From positions 1 to 44,427 of the forward strand of contig QHUR01000033.1 in the NCBI GenBank assembly GCA_003221995.1: a stretch of DNA of 44,427 nt, given 5' to 3'. The stretch is from Gemmatimonadota bacterium. Its GTDB lineage: Bacteria > Gemmatimonadota > Gemmatimonadetes > Gemmatimonadales > GWC2-71-9. Below are positions 2,654-7,344 of the stretch, in pieces; position 1 is the stretch's first letter; each line of letters starts with the position of its first letter. A program made the position numbers and the translations under genes. Under the pieces are notes generated by a model that ran no database searches, had not been told where the DNA came from, and worked only from the letters and a program-made list of their open reading frames with translations.

Positions 2654-3615
2654 GCTCCCCGGTGCTCGCGCTCGACCGGGTCACCAAGCGGTTCGCCGGC
2701 CACACGGCCGTAGACGGTCTGTCCCTCTCCGTGCCGCGCGGCGTCATCTACGGGCTGCTCGGCCCGAACGGCGCCGGCAAGACGACTACCATCCGGATGA
2801 TCATGGACATCATCGAGCCCGACGAGGGATCGGTGCGGCTGTTCGGCGAGCCGGGCACGGGCCGGGACCACTCGGCGCGCATTGGGTACCTGCCCGAGGA
2901 GCGGGGGCTGTACCGCAGAATGCGCGTGCTCGACTTGGTTGTGTTCCTCGCCGAGATGAAGGGCGTGGAGCGGCGGCGGGCACGGGCGCGCGCCGCGCTC
3001 TGGCTCGAACGGCTGGGCCTCGAAGCGTGGCGCCTGCGTCGCGTGGACGAGCTCTCGAAGGGCATGCAGCAGAAGGTGCAGTTCGTCTCGACCATCCTGC
3101 ACGAGCCCGAGCTCCTCGTGCTGGACGAGCCTTTCGCCGGGCTCGATCCCGTCAATACGCAGGTCCTGAAGGATGCGGTGGTGGAGCTGCGGCGCGATGG
3201 TGTCACGATCCTGTTTTCGACGCACATCATGGAGCAGGCGGAGAAACTGTGCGACCAGCTGTGCATCATCGCTCGCGGCAGGAAACTGGTGGACGGAGCG
3301 CTCGCCGACATCAAGCGGACACAAACAGGACACCATCTCGTCATCGGGTTTGACGGCGCTCCCGGGGCGGCAGCCCAACTGTTTGCAGACGAGCGGGTTG
3401 TGAAGAAGGTGGACGATTATGGCCAGTATGCCGAGCTCGAGCTCGCACCGGGCGCCGACGCGCAGCGTCTGCTGGCGGCCCTGGTGAACTCGGGGGCGCG
3501 GCTGGCGCGGTTCGAGCTCAGCGAGCCGTCGCTGAACAAGATCTTCCTCGACCTCGTGGGGCCGGAAGCGGCGACGCCCGCAGCGCGGCCCCACCCGGGA
3601 GGGGCTCGTGCGTAA
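2650..3615 (+). CDS. ABC transporter ATP-binding protein (NatA-like)
   Basis: Walker A GPNGAGKTT, signature LSKGMQQKVQ, Walker B LLVLDEPFAGLD; GTG start at 2650 overlapping the sufU stop. Confidence 0.92.
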   Translation: MSSPVLALDRVTKRFAGHTAVDGLSLSVPRGVIYGLLGPNGAGKTTTIRMIMDIIEPDEGSVRLFGEPGTGRDHSARIGYLPEERGLYRRMRVLDLVVFLAEMKGVERRRARARAALWLERLGLEAWRLRRVDELSKGMQQKVQFVSTILHEPELLVLDEPFAGLDPVNTQVLKDAVVELRRDGVTILFSTHIMEQAEKLCDQLCIIARGRKLVDGALADIKRTQTGHHLVIGFDGAPGAAAQLFADERVVKKVDDYGQYAELELAPGADAQRLLAALVNSGARLARFELSEPSLNKIFLDLVGPEAATPAARPHPGGARA

Positions 3616-4867
3616 GATCTGGGCCGTGATCCGGCGGGAGTTCGTGGAGCGGATTCGGAGCAAGTGGTTCTGGATTTCCGCGCTGCTCGGCCCCGTGTTT
3701 TTCGGCGCGATGATCGTCGTGCCGGTGCTGTTCGCGGGAGCCGGCGGCACGCGGCGGATCGCCGTGGTGGACGGGACCACGGGGGCGTTCGGGGCGCGGG
3801 TCGTCGCAGGCCTCCGCGGCGGCAAGATCTTTCGCGCGACCCGCGTGCCTGCGGGCGTGGGCGTGGTGGACTCGCTCACCCAGCTCGTGGGCGCGAAGCA
3901 GCTCGACGGTTTTCTCATCGTGACCGACGCGGTGGTCGAGACCGGCACAGCCGAGTACCGAGCGTCCAACGTGTCGTCGTTCCGCGACGTCGCGGAGCTG
4001 CAGGACGTGCTCGCCCGGGTCGCGGTAGCCGCGCGTCTCGAGCGCCAGGGGGTCGACCCCGCCGTGGTAGGGCGCGCCCAGCTCCGGATCAGCCTCGACA
4101 CGAAGAAGATCTCCGGCTCGAGAACGACGGGCGAGAGCGCCGCCCAGTCGTTCGCGCTTGCCTACGTCATGGGGGTTGTGCTCTTTCTGGTCATCACGAT
4201 TTACGGCGTGAACGTGATGAGCTCGGTGGTCGAGGAGAAGACGACCCGCATCGTCGAGGTGCTGGTGTCGTCGCTGCGACCGTTCCAGTTGATGATCGGG
4301 AAGGTGCTGGGAGTGGGAGCGGTGTCGATCTTCCAGTTCGTGCTGTGGGGACTCGGCGCGAAGCTGCTCCTATCGCAGCGCCAGGCGCTGCTCGCAGGTG
4401 TGGGCGGGGCGGAGGAGGCGCGCCAGGTGTTCCAGATGCCCCACCTCTCCGCCGCCACGCTGGGCGTGTTCCTTGGCTACTTCTTGGGTGGGTTCTTCCT
4501 CTATTCGGCGATGTACGCCGCCGTGGGCGCGATGTCCTCCAACGAGCAGGAGGCGCGCCAGGCGCAGCAGCCGGTCATGTTCCTGTTGATGATCGCCTAC
4601 GTCTCCATGTTCGGGCTCACGAACAACCCGGAGTCGACCTACGCGGTGACGCTGTCGCTGATTCCGTTCACCGCGCCGATCGCGATGCCGGTGCGCTGGG
4701 CGGCGAGCACGGTGCCAGCGGCCGAGCTGGTGGGTTCGCTCGGGCTGCTGGTGGCGGGCATCGTCGCAGTGACTTGGGTGGCGGCGCGGATTTATCGGGT
4801 CGGCATACTCATGACGGGGAAGCGGCCGAACGTTAGGGAGCTGGTCAGATGGGTTCGAGCCGGCTAG
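3608..4867 (+). CDS. ABC transporter permease (NatB / ABC-2 type)
   Basis: N-terminal RREFVERIRSKWFW, GVNVMSSVVEEKTTRIVEVLVSSLRPFQLMIGKVLG; multiple TM segments; overlaps the upstream ATPase gene. Confidence 0.9.
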   Translation: MRKIWAVIRREFVERIRSKWFWISALLGPVFFGAMIVVPVLFAGAGGTRRIAVVDGTTGAFGARVVAGLRGGKIFRATRVPAGVGVVDSLTQLVGAKQLDGFLIVTDAVVETGTAEYRASNVSSFRDVAELQDVLARVAVAARLERQGVDPAVVGRAQLRISLDTKKISGSRTTGESAAQSFALAYVMGVVLFLVITIYGVNVMSSVVEEKTTRIVEVLVSSLRPFQLMIGKVLGVGAVSIFQFVLWGLGAKLLLSQRQALLAGVGGAEEARQVFQMPHLSAATLGVFLGYFLGGFFLYSAMYAAVGAMSSNEQEARQAQQPVMFLLMIAYVSMFGLTNNPESTYAVTLSLIPFTAPIAMPVRWAASTVPAAELVGSLGLLVAGIVAVTWVAARIYRVGILMTGKRPNVRELVRWVRAG

Positions 4868-4876
4868 ACGGCGAGG

Positions 4877-4920
4877 GAGACGCGGAGACGCCGAGGAAGA
4901 CGCCAAGGTGCCGAGACGCT
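4877..4920. repeat. Degenerate octamer array, left arm of an inverted repeat around the four-helix-bundle gene
   Basis: Reads GAGACGCG GAGACGCC gagg AAGACGCC AAGGTGCC GAGACGCT, followed by GAGTAGATGTGAG. Confidence 0.8.
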
Positions 4921-5015
4921 GAGTAGATGTGAGATGCAAGCAGAAGGCGTAGGAAGGGGACGGCGCGCGCACTTTGGATACCGCGTTGTTGGCGTCGCCG
5001 TACCAGCTTGAGCCA

Positions 5016-5393
5016 ATGGCGCACTACAAGACCCTCAAGGCTTGGCAACATGCGCAGCGCCTCGCCATCGAATGCGTGAAAGCCGCTCGCGCGTTCCCTG
5101 ATTATGAACAGCACGCACTAGCAGATCAGTTGCGACGTGCTTGTTACAGCGTCCCCTTAAACATCGCCGAAGGCAACACTCGGCAGGGCTCGCGCGAATA
5201 CCGGCGGTTCCTGGACACGGCTCGGGGCTCGCTTGCCGAGGTGGAGACGATTATCGAGATGGCCCGCGAGCTGGAGTACATGAGGCCCGCCGAGTTCGGG
5301 CGCCTGGAAGCCTTGGTCAACGAAACGGGCAAGACCCTGTATGGGTTGCTTCGGAAGGTGAGCGGGGCGGCTGTAAGAACTCCTGCTACCTAA
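5016..5393 (+). CDS. Four-helix bundle protein (S23 / 23S rRNA intervening-sequence-protein family)
   Basis: MAHYKTLKAWQHAQRLAIECVKAARAFPDYEQHALADQLRRACYSVPLNIAEGNTRQGSREYRRFLDTARGSLAEVETIIEMA matches the family pattern (LxxW, QxRRAxxSVPxNIAEG, FLxxArGSlaEvet). Track start is TTG at 4974; ATG at 5016 is more typical. Confidence 0.92.
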   Translation: MAHYKTLKAWQHAQRLAIECVKAARAFPDYEQHALADQLRRACYSVPLNIAEGNTRQGSREYRRFLDTARGSLAEVETIIEMARELEYMRPAEFGRLEALVNETGKTLYGLLRKVSGAAVRTPAT

Positions 5394-5410
5394 GCTCCTC
5401 ACATCCACTC

Positions 5411-5454
5411 AGCGTCTCGGCGGCTCGGCGTCTCCCTAGTAGTCGGGGCGTCTC
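5411..5454. repeat. Degenerate octamer array, right arm of the inverted repeat
   Basis: Reverse complement reads GAGACGCC (5427-5434) GAGCCGCC (5419-5426) GAGACGCT (5411-5418) GAGTGGATGTGAG; extra GAGACGCC at 5447-5454. Confidence 0.8.
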
Positions 5455-5472: not shown

Positions 5473-7344
5473 ATGCCTTTCGACTATGACGTCCTCATCG
5501 TCGGTGCCGGCCACGCCGGCTCCGAAGCCGCCGTCATGTGCGCCCGGCTCGGCGCACGCGCACTGCTGATCACTTCCAACCTCGACACTATCGGTCAGAT
5601 GTCGTGCAATCCGGCGATCGGCGGGATCGCGAAGGGGACTGTCGTGCGCGAGATCGACGCGCTGGGCGGTCTCATGGGTCGTGCCAGCGATCGTGCGACG
5701 ATCCAATTCCGGATGCTCAACCGCTCCAAGGGCCCGGCGGTGTGGGCGCCGCGCGCGCAGTGCGACCGCACGCTGTACCGCCGCGCGGTGCGGCAACTGC
5801 TCGAGGGGTTCCGCGATCTCGAGCTGACCCAGGGAATGGTCGCGCGGCTGGTCGTCCACGGGGACCAAGTCGGGGGGGTCGAGACAACCGATGGGCGCCG
5901 CTTCACCGCGCGGGCGGTGATCATCACGGCGGGCACGTTCCTGCGGGGTCGGATTCACGTTGGGACCGATACGGCGATTCCGGCGGGCCGGGCGGGTGAC
6001 CAACCGGCCGTCGAGATTGCGCAACACATTGCGGCACTTGGGCTTACAGTGTCGCGCTTCAAAACTGGGACGCCGCCTCGCGTGGACGGGCGGACGGTCG
6101 ATTGGTCCAAGGTGGAGCGACAGGACGGCGACGAGGATGAGTACCGCTTCTCGTTCTACGAACGGGTGGAGCGACCGCAGCAGTTGCCGTGCTGGATCAC
6201 GTGGGCCGGCCCTGCTGTAAAGGCGATCATCGAGCGGCACCTTAAGGAATCGGCGCTGTACGGTGGGGCGATCAGCGGGCGGGGTCCGCGCTACTGCCCG
6301 TCGGTCGAGGACAAGGTGGTGAAATTCCCGGACGCGAAGCGCCACCAGGTGTTCCTTGAGCCTGAAGGGCTGGATACGGCGGAGCTGTACGTGAACGGGC
6401 TGTCCACTTCCCTGCCCGTCCAGGTGCAGGTGGAGTTCGTGCACGCCGTGCCCGGGCTGGAGCGAGCGAAGCTGACGCGGCCGGGCTACGCGATCGAATA
6501 CGACTACTATCCCCCGACTCAGCTGACCCCGTGGCTCGAAACCAAGGCGATCGAGCACCTGTGGTTCGCCGGGCAGATCAACGGGACGACGGGCTACGAG
6601 GAGGCAGCGGGACAGGGAGTGGTCGCGGGAATCAACGCAGTGCGGCGCATCCGGGGGCACGAGCCGGTGGTACTGGGGCGGGACGACGCCTACATCGGGG
6701 TGCTCGTGGACGACCTGGTGACGCGGGGCGTGGACGAGCCGTATCGATTGTTCACGTCCCGCTCGGAGTTCCGGCTCCTGCTGCGCCAGGACAACGCGCT
6801 TCGGCGGCTGCTGCCCCTTGCGGAGACCCTGGGCTTGCTCACAGCGAGCGAGCTGCGTGTGGCGGAGCGGCGGCTCGGCGAGGAGGAGGAGGTGCTGGCG
6901 GCCGCGCGCGAGACGACGATCACCCCCGCACAGGCGGCGGGCGCGCTCGCGGCGACGGGAACGAAGCTGGTAGAGCCGGAGCGTGTGGCGTCCGTGGTGA
7001 AGCGACCGGGTGCATCGTTGGGGCAACTGCTCGCGGCGGCGGGGGCGGTACAGCAGGTGGAAGGCGACGTGGTGAGGTCGGCGGAGATCGAGCTCAAGTA
7101 CGAGGGGTATCTCGCGCGCGAGCGGGAGGCAGCGCGGCGCCTGGCGGAGCTTGCGTCGTTCGCGCTGCCGGGGGACCTGCCCTACCTCGAGCTGGCGAGT
7201 CTCGCGACGGAGGCGCGGCAGAAGCTCGACGTCGTACGCCCGACCTCACTGGCGCAGGCGGCGCGGATTCCGGGTGTGTCGCCGAGCGATCTGCACAATC
7301 TCGTGGTGGAGGCGACGCGCTGGCGGCGCCGGGAAGTGGCCTAA
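5473..7344 (+). CDS. mnmG: tRNA uridine-5-carboxymethylaminomethyl modification enzyme MnmG
   Basis: FDYDVLIVGAGHAGSEAA, SCNPAIGGIAKG, RFKTGTPPRVDGRTVDWSK, GQINGTTGYEEAAGQG. Confidence 0.97.
   Translation: MPFDYDVLIVGAGHAGSEAAVMCARLGARALLITSNLDTIGQMSCNPAIGGIAKGTVVREIDALGGLMGRASDRATIQFRMLNRSKGPAVWAPRAQCDRTLYRRAVRQLLEGFRDLELTQGMVARLVVHGDQVGGVETTDGRRFTARAVIITAGTFLRGRIHVGTDTAIPAGRAGDQPAVEIAQHIAALGLTVSRFKTGTPPRVDGRTVDWSKVERQDGDEDEYRFSFYERVERPQQLPCWITWAGPAVKAIIERHLKESALYGGAISGRGPRYCPSVEDKVVKFPDAKRHQVFLEPEGLDTAELYVNGLSTSLPVQVQVEFVHAVPGLERAKLTRPGYAIEYDYYPPTQLTPWLETKAIEHLWFAGQINGTTGYEEAAGQGVVAGINAVRRIRGHEPVVLGRDDAYIGVLVDDLVTRGVDEPYRLFTSRSEFRLLLRQDNALRRLLPLAETLGLLTASELRVAERRLGEEEEVLAAARETTITPAQAAGALAATGTKLVEPERVASVVKRPGASLGQLLAAAGAVQQVEGDVVRSAEIELKYEGYLAREREAARRLAELASFALPGDLPYLELASLATEARQKLDVVRPTSLAQAARIPGVSPSDLHNLVVEATRWRRREVA

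Follow-up and report, generated by a model that had tools for sequence, protein, structure and literature searches.

The window (the whole stretch of 44,427 nt analyzed in this study) contained a gene of the S23/IVP four-helix-bundle family between an ABC permease gene and mnmG, enclosed by two arrays of 8-bp units in opposite orientation (Table 1). The original prediction had placed an S23/IVP-type gene between such arrays, and this was borne out by matches of the protein to the profiles PF05635 (23S_rRNA_IVP; E 1.2e-31, 109.5 bits, curated cut-off 33.8) and TIGR02436 (E 2.5e-30, 104.9 bits, curated cut-off 24). The reading frame starts at the ATG at 5016, and an alternative in-frame TTG is present at 4974. 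The absence of rRNA from the locus, also claimed there, holds, as the copy of the window is located in the permease-mnmG interval and not in an rRNA gene.

Table 1. Positions of the S23 element and of the neighboring host genes in the window
Feature	Positions	Strand	Remarks
ABC permease gene, upstream host gene outside the element	3608..4867	+	Stop codon overlaps the first array unit
Left array, 8-bp units	4865..4933	+	Flank-to-flank alignment and direct reading
S23/IVP four-helix-bundle gene	5016..5393	+	PF05635, TIGR02436; 125 aa from ATG
Right array, inverted copy of the left	5398..5454	-	GAGACGCC .. GAGACGCCGAGCCGCC GAGACGCT GAGTGGATGTGAG on the - strand
mnmG, downstream host gene outside the element	5473..7344	+	Served as reference for the host tree

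The units of the left array are, in order, TAGACGGC gagg GAGACGCG GAGACGCC gagg AAGACGCC AAGGTGCC GAGACGCT GAGTAGATGTGAG. The units originally proposed were all found, but the array extends slightly further upstream than had been assumed and starts at 4865, where the TAG of the first unit TAGACGGC is the stop codon of the permease gene by direct reading. Thus, the last codon of the permease gene is also the start of the element. The two predicted arm matches were exact in their coordinates: the inner segment at 4911-4933 (ccgagacgctgagtagatgtgag) differs by one base from the reverse complement of 5398-5420, and the outer segment at 4885-4895 (gagacgccgag) is identical to the reverse complement of 5424-5434. 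When the flanks of the S23 gene were aligned locally with each other, the match covered 58 nt per side with a score of 61 (z 15.8), against a mean of 22 and a maximum of 33 in dinucleotide shuffles. In the minimum-energy fold of the whole element as RNA, 50 arm-arm pairs were predicted, indicating terminal inverted repeats that would be able to form a stem.

S23/IVP genes are labelled 'four helix bundle protein' or 'S23 ribosomal protein' in very many genomes, without a function. The AlphaFold2 model of the window S23 protein (pLDDT 94.8) was matched by Foldseek to the four-helix bundle XCC0516 (2GSC; E 1.6e-8, TM 0.89), which is known as a homopentamer (quoted in PMC4990558). No recognizable nuclease or recombinase domain was identified in S23. 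A more distant fold homologue is Avd (4DWL, 8UB7), and the sequence gave weak matches, below curated cut-offs, to the bAvd and diversity-generating retroelement (DGR) Avd models. This homology would be in line with an S23 that acts, like Avd, as the partner of a reverse transcriptase, the element being retro-mobilized. We consider such a mode extremely improbable, because no RVT_1 domain was found in the source genome, in five relatives, or in Xanthomonas and Dokdonella, and Thiobacillus alone has one; with RVT_1 absent in eight of nine genomes, mobilization by reverse transcriptase was rejected.

Array pairs and array words at other S23 loci

The generality of the layout was examined by aligning the 450 nt to the left of S23 genes with the 450 nt to their right in reverse complement, and array pairs were accepted at z above 5 relative to dinucleotide shuffles. 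An inverted short-period array pair enclosed the S23 gene at 111 of 150 loci, as the original prediction had expected for flanks of other members of the family. These comprised 25 of 29 loci from the taxonomic family, 13 of 16 from the phylum, 6 of 7 from named plasmids, 50 of 77 from named genomes (many phyla and one archaeal genome, ANME-1), and 17 of 21 from IMG/VR contigs. Further S23 paralogues in four genomes had an array pair in 19 of 20 cases. About a quarter of the S23 loci, including one of the three in the source genome, lacked a significant pair. The best period was 7 in 99 pairs, 8 in 11, and 5 in one, so that the 8-bp period of the window belongs to a minority and 7 bp is the rule across S23 loci. 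On the coding strand, the upstream arm was G-rich in 97 and C-rich in 12 of the 111 pairs, and the median matched arm had 5.0 units. Where the upstream gene was on the same strand, the left array lay within about 20 nt of its stop codon at 46 of 64 S23 loci, as assessed with a crude null model.

Pseudo-intervals taken from the same contigs yielded no array pair (0/135), and only one of 65 real neighboring genes was enclosed. This exception (L167:750-1115) is itself an S23 gene (Pfam 9.8e-34) that was found blind, so none of the 64 non-S23 neighbors was enclosed. Chance or low complexity as the source of the array pairs was ruled out by the shuffles and the two types of control. Separately, the IMG/VR contigs with S23 elements (L184-L212) are classed as viral, which could reflect carriage between hosts or contamination by prophage flanks.

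The array word varies between loci. Matches to the doubled word GGGAATC numbered 147 in Xanthomonas arboricola, 36 in Solimonas, and 17 in Dokdonella, in all of which the S23 arms are GGGAATC or GGGATTC, and there were none in 12 other S23-bearing genomes. Likewise, doubled GGTGAGT gave 77 matches in a Thiobacillus genome with GGTGAGT S23 arms, a single match in one further genome, and no match in the other 13. For both words, direct reading of the sequence showed pairs without a gene as well as solo arrays. The distance between words rose with the distance between S23 proteins in the global set (Mantel p 0.0005, r about 0.2), the correlation being strong only among close relatives. Within the family, arm similarity was 0.17 among S23 genes of one genome versus 0.58 for close S23 relatives across genomes (p 6e-10). 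Up to 17 S23 paralogues occurred per genome, with unrelated words where examined. The covariation of array word and protein clade, which had been named beforehand as support for a system, was therefore found, and we regard as solid the inference from these comparisons that the word tracks the S23 protein and not the genome or the neighboring gene.

These observations also bear on the role of transposases. Dispersed inverted pairs of short repeats resemble REPINs, and Y1_Tnp genes were present in eight of nine S23 genomes searched; S23 could accordingly be a passenger in a system of REPIN type that a Y1 (RAYT-like) transposase mobilizes in trans. It is highly unlikely that this applies here, since the enclosed gene is S23 and none of the 64 other neighbors, the word follows S23, and no Y1_Tnp match was obtained in the source genome (assembly 88% complete). 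For genomes other than the source, a Y1 transposase acting in trans is not excluded.

History of the site and gene-less copies

In at least eight genomes of the family, the permease-mnmG interval was occupied by an S23 gene; in several others it was empty (about 10-130 bp). The occupied site is old and shared, so the copy in the window is not a recent insertion. Arms of type A (GAGACGCC) were identified at this site in the source genome (G000), G020, G011, and G044, type B (AGACGGGT) in the sister species G001 and in G016 of a related genus, and type C in G048 and G049. The mnmG tree places G000 next to G001 as its sister (100/99) and requires three changes for arm type A, whereas the S23 protein tree unites type A in a single clade (100/97). 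The pairing of G000 with G001 was rejected by the S23 protein data (AU p 0.005; p 0.058 for the DNA version). Within each genome, the left and right arms at this site still match one another. The simplest reading of these trees is that the gene and both arms were swapped as one unit at a persistent site. The dN/dS values between S23 occupants of the site were 0.06-0.14 (only pairs with estimable dS), showing that the protein there is under purifying selection.

Comparison of the element with its own 2.1-Mb assembly gave 42 matches, nearly all on the arms; these matches correspond to about ten inverted pairs without a gene, each roughly 130-180 bp long, distributed over seven other contigs. The consensus of these pairs consists of GAGGGAGACGCCGAGATGCCGAGACGCTGAGTGGATGTGAG, a short loop, and the reverse complement of GAGGGAGACGCCGAGATGCCGAGACGCTGAGTGGATGTGAG; it folds into a 34-bp hairpin, and the copy in the window has the S23 gene in the position of the loop. 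The second S23 gene of the source genome is flanked on both sides by inverted 7-bp AGACGTC/AGACATC arrays, and a gene-less AGACGTC/AGACATC pair lies 0.4 kb from it. For the third S23 gene (contig C47), no inverted array pair was significant relative to shuffles. CGTA-GGG words stand on both sides of this gene (L020, G000:C47, 818-1063), possibly as a decayed copy; they looked arm-like but were rejected as arms for want of significance.

Four gene-less copies on contig C80 of the source genome are missing in G016, where one site consists of 2 nt between conserved flanks, and one of the C80 copies is down to a single arm in the sister species. At another intergenic position, a GAGACGCC pair of the source genome has as its counterpart in the sister species a gene-less GGGGAGT pair (L291, G001:C48, 130-360). 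No consistent target-site duplication was detected in the empty-site comparison of gene-less copies. Covariation in the hairpins was weak (2 compensatory changes among 34 pairs), and this signal cannot tell selection on RNA from gene conversion. We also observed a crowding of the window array on contig C80 (L012, G000:C80, 2023-7104), where five copies or part-copies, one of them a solo arm at 5334, lie around small intergenic gaps in a stretch of about 5 kb.

Among the genes found, only S23 has termini that match the gene-less copies, which look like MITE-like derivatives of S23 cassettes. The gene-less pairs outnumber the gene-bearing ones, as would be expected if the arrays were an independent MITE-like repeat family and S23 inserted or homed into existing pairs, using them as a target and not as termini. 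We judge this relationship quite unlikely, because the paralogues of one genome each have a word of their own and, across genomes, words go with the S23 clade, while a homing gene of single specificity would not need private words.

One gene-less element of Xanthomonas, for which 35 genomes of the genus were searched, was present in every readable interval, with 2 to about 19 units and with loops replaced between species. A clean empty allele was sought for this element and not obtained, every readable species being a carrier. In some Xanthomonas species (L287, L288, L290), a different repeat (CCCCTCTCCC..GGGAGAGGGGTTGGGGTGAGGG) is nested in the loop of the GGGAATC element at the same site or replaces that loop. 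A further gene-less element, in Thiobacillus (L250, G340:C31, about 310-560), has a 25-unit GGTGAGT/GGGGAGT array with a short partner array and is nested in a larger inverted repeat (ATTATATAGGGGG .. CCCCCTATATAAT).

The persistence of sites, with one site shared by at least eight genomes and the Xanthomonas element in all readable species, counts against a mobile element. Together with the purifying selection and the placement flush with stop codons, it would suit S23 as a host regulatory nucleic-acid-binding protein, whose own arrays are autoregulatory and whose scattered arrays form a regulon (e.g., post-transcriptional sites at gene ends); nothing would then be mobile, and the arrays would arise and drift in place. 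A regulatory role has likewise been proposed for the TAACTGA heptamers of Beggiatoaceae (PMC4679880). However, a host regulator would not account for the exchange of gene and arms as a unit against the host tree, the clean absence of gene-less copies in relatives, the pair of a different word at the same site in the sister species, a copy within 23S rRNA (see below), or the numerous paralogues with unrelated words, and we consider it unlikely.

Interpretation and comparison with known systems

Taken together, we think it likely that an S23 gene and its inverted arrays form a compact mobile cassette, in which S23 is an array-specific factor whose roles in binding and transposition are inferred. 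The layout and the coupling of word and protein are solid. Mobility is well supported by comparison of genomes but has not been observed, and the function of S23 as a recognition factor with direct protein-array binding is an inference, as is its promotion of movement together with host enzymes. Since the word tracks the protein rather than the host, S23 is inferred to recognize the array, most likely as a hairpin; the ligand might be the cognate array word folded as a hairpin of either RNA or single-stranded DNA. Gene-less copies have the same word as the local S23 gene, and their presence differs from genus to genus; from this we infer that S23 probably helps gene-less copies of its own word to spread and persist. 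Insertions would usually be flush with a gene end, and a long stem formed by the arms may explain why they are tolerated. With no reverse transcriptase detected in eight of the nine genomes and no Y1 in the source genome, host enzymes or some unknown activity would have to do the cutting and joining. That an arm has about five units and that XCC0516 is a pentamer is a suggestive parallel and no more.

The original prediction had described the locus as a minimal module of cargo plus termini, and this description gains support from the covariation, from empty permease-mnmG sites in other genera, and from the enclosed S23 genes elsewhere, with mobility remaining inferred. It had also named two outcomes that would speak against such a module. 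Arrays of the same word away from S23 genes do occur in the form of the gene-less copies, but these carry the word of the local S23. As to vertical conservation, the occupied site is old and shared by several genomes, although gene and arms were apparently exchanged there as a unit; empty sites exist in other genera.

Through these results, S23/IVP genes of no known function gain a partner, the array word, and two separate old oddities are joined, namely the insertions that fragment 23S rRNA and the heptamer repeats of Xanthomonas. They suggest a protein-plus-repeat element without transposase or reverse transcriptase that occurs in several versions with unrelated words in one genome. More tentatively, and short of calling it probable, we propose that S23 genes across many phyla and one archaeon encode the protein component of a class of mobile elements that has not been described so far. 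In this scheme, a four-helix bundle without enzymatic activity, possibly with one subunit per heptamer of an arm of about five units, would read a private word and spread hairpins, and rRNA intervening sequences, the Xanthomonas heptamers, and possibly the cyanobacterial heptamers would be its outcomes. No literature linking S23 genes to arrays was found, with preprints and most subscription papers outside the scope of the search.

The closest known relatives are the intervening sequences of 23S rRNA with an S23 ORF (Coxiella, Leptospira; PMC4990558), which share the S23 gene, the terminal inverted repeats forming a long stem, and a sporadic, partly horizontal distribution. In Coxiella, the intervening sequence has 28-bp terminal inverted repeats, tandem GACAGAT heptamers beside the S23 ORF vary in number between strains, and RNase III excises the sequence in vitro (PMC4990558). 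In Azospirillum lipoferum 4B, we found an S23 gene with inverted GACAGAG/GACGGAT heptamer arms within a 23S rRNA gene; the flanking sequence points to the helix-45 position. Given the matching anatomy of this copy, the classic rRNA intervening sequence is taken to be the same element, and excision of the stem by RNase III would make it a special case thereof. The rRNA-embedded element lies on plasmid AZO_p2 (L100, 1436-1904), and no gene is listed there in the plasmid table. Unlike these sequences, the copy in the window and the other loci examined are, as far as checked, outside rRNA, Azospirillum excepted. Cognate words, genome-wide gene-less copies, and covariation of word and protein were not described for rRNA intervening sequences.

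The intergenic heptanucleotide repeats GGGAATC of Xanthomonas and GGGGA(T/C)T of Nostoc are related to cyanobacterial STRR, and GGGAATC forms about 70 inverted convergent pairs per Xanthomonas genome (PMC4692102). The same word encloses the Xanthomonas gene that matches XCC0516, the protein of the solved structure 2GSC. However, the heptanucleotides were treated in that study as G-quadruplex repeats, and the S23 gene is unmentioned.

RAYT/REPIN systems are similar in having one protein gene between short repeats and many dispersed, non-autonomous inverted doublets. They differ in that S23 is an unrelated protein without a HuH/Y1 domain, the enclosed gene being PF05635, and in that S23 elements have tandem 7-8-bp arrays instead of single REPs, often with several systems per genome. 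The Avd protein of DGRs shares a homologous four-helix-bundle fold with S23 but works in a ribonucleoprotein with reverse transcriptase, which most S23 genomes examined are without. On this evidence, the rRNA intervening sequence would be one special case, already known, of a wider class whose cognate words and gene-less derivatives fit none of the families compared.
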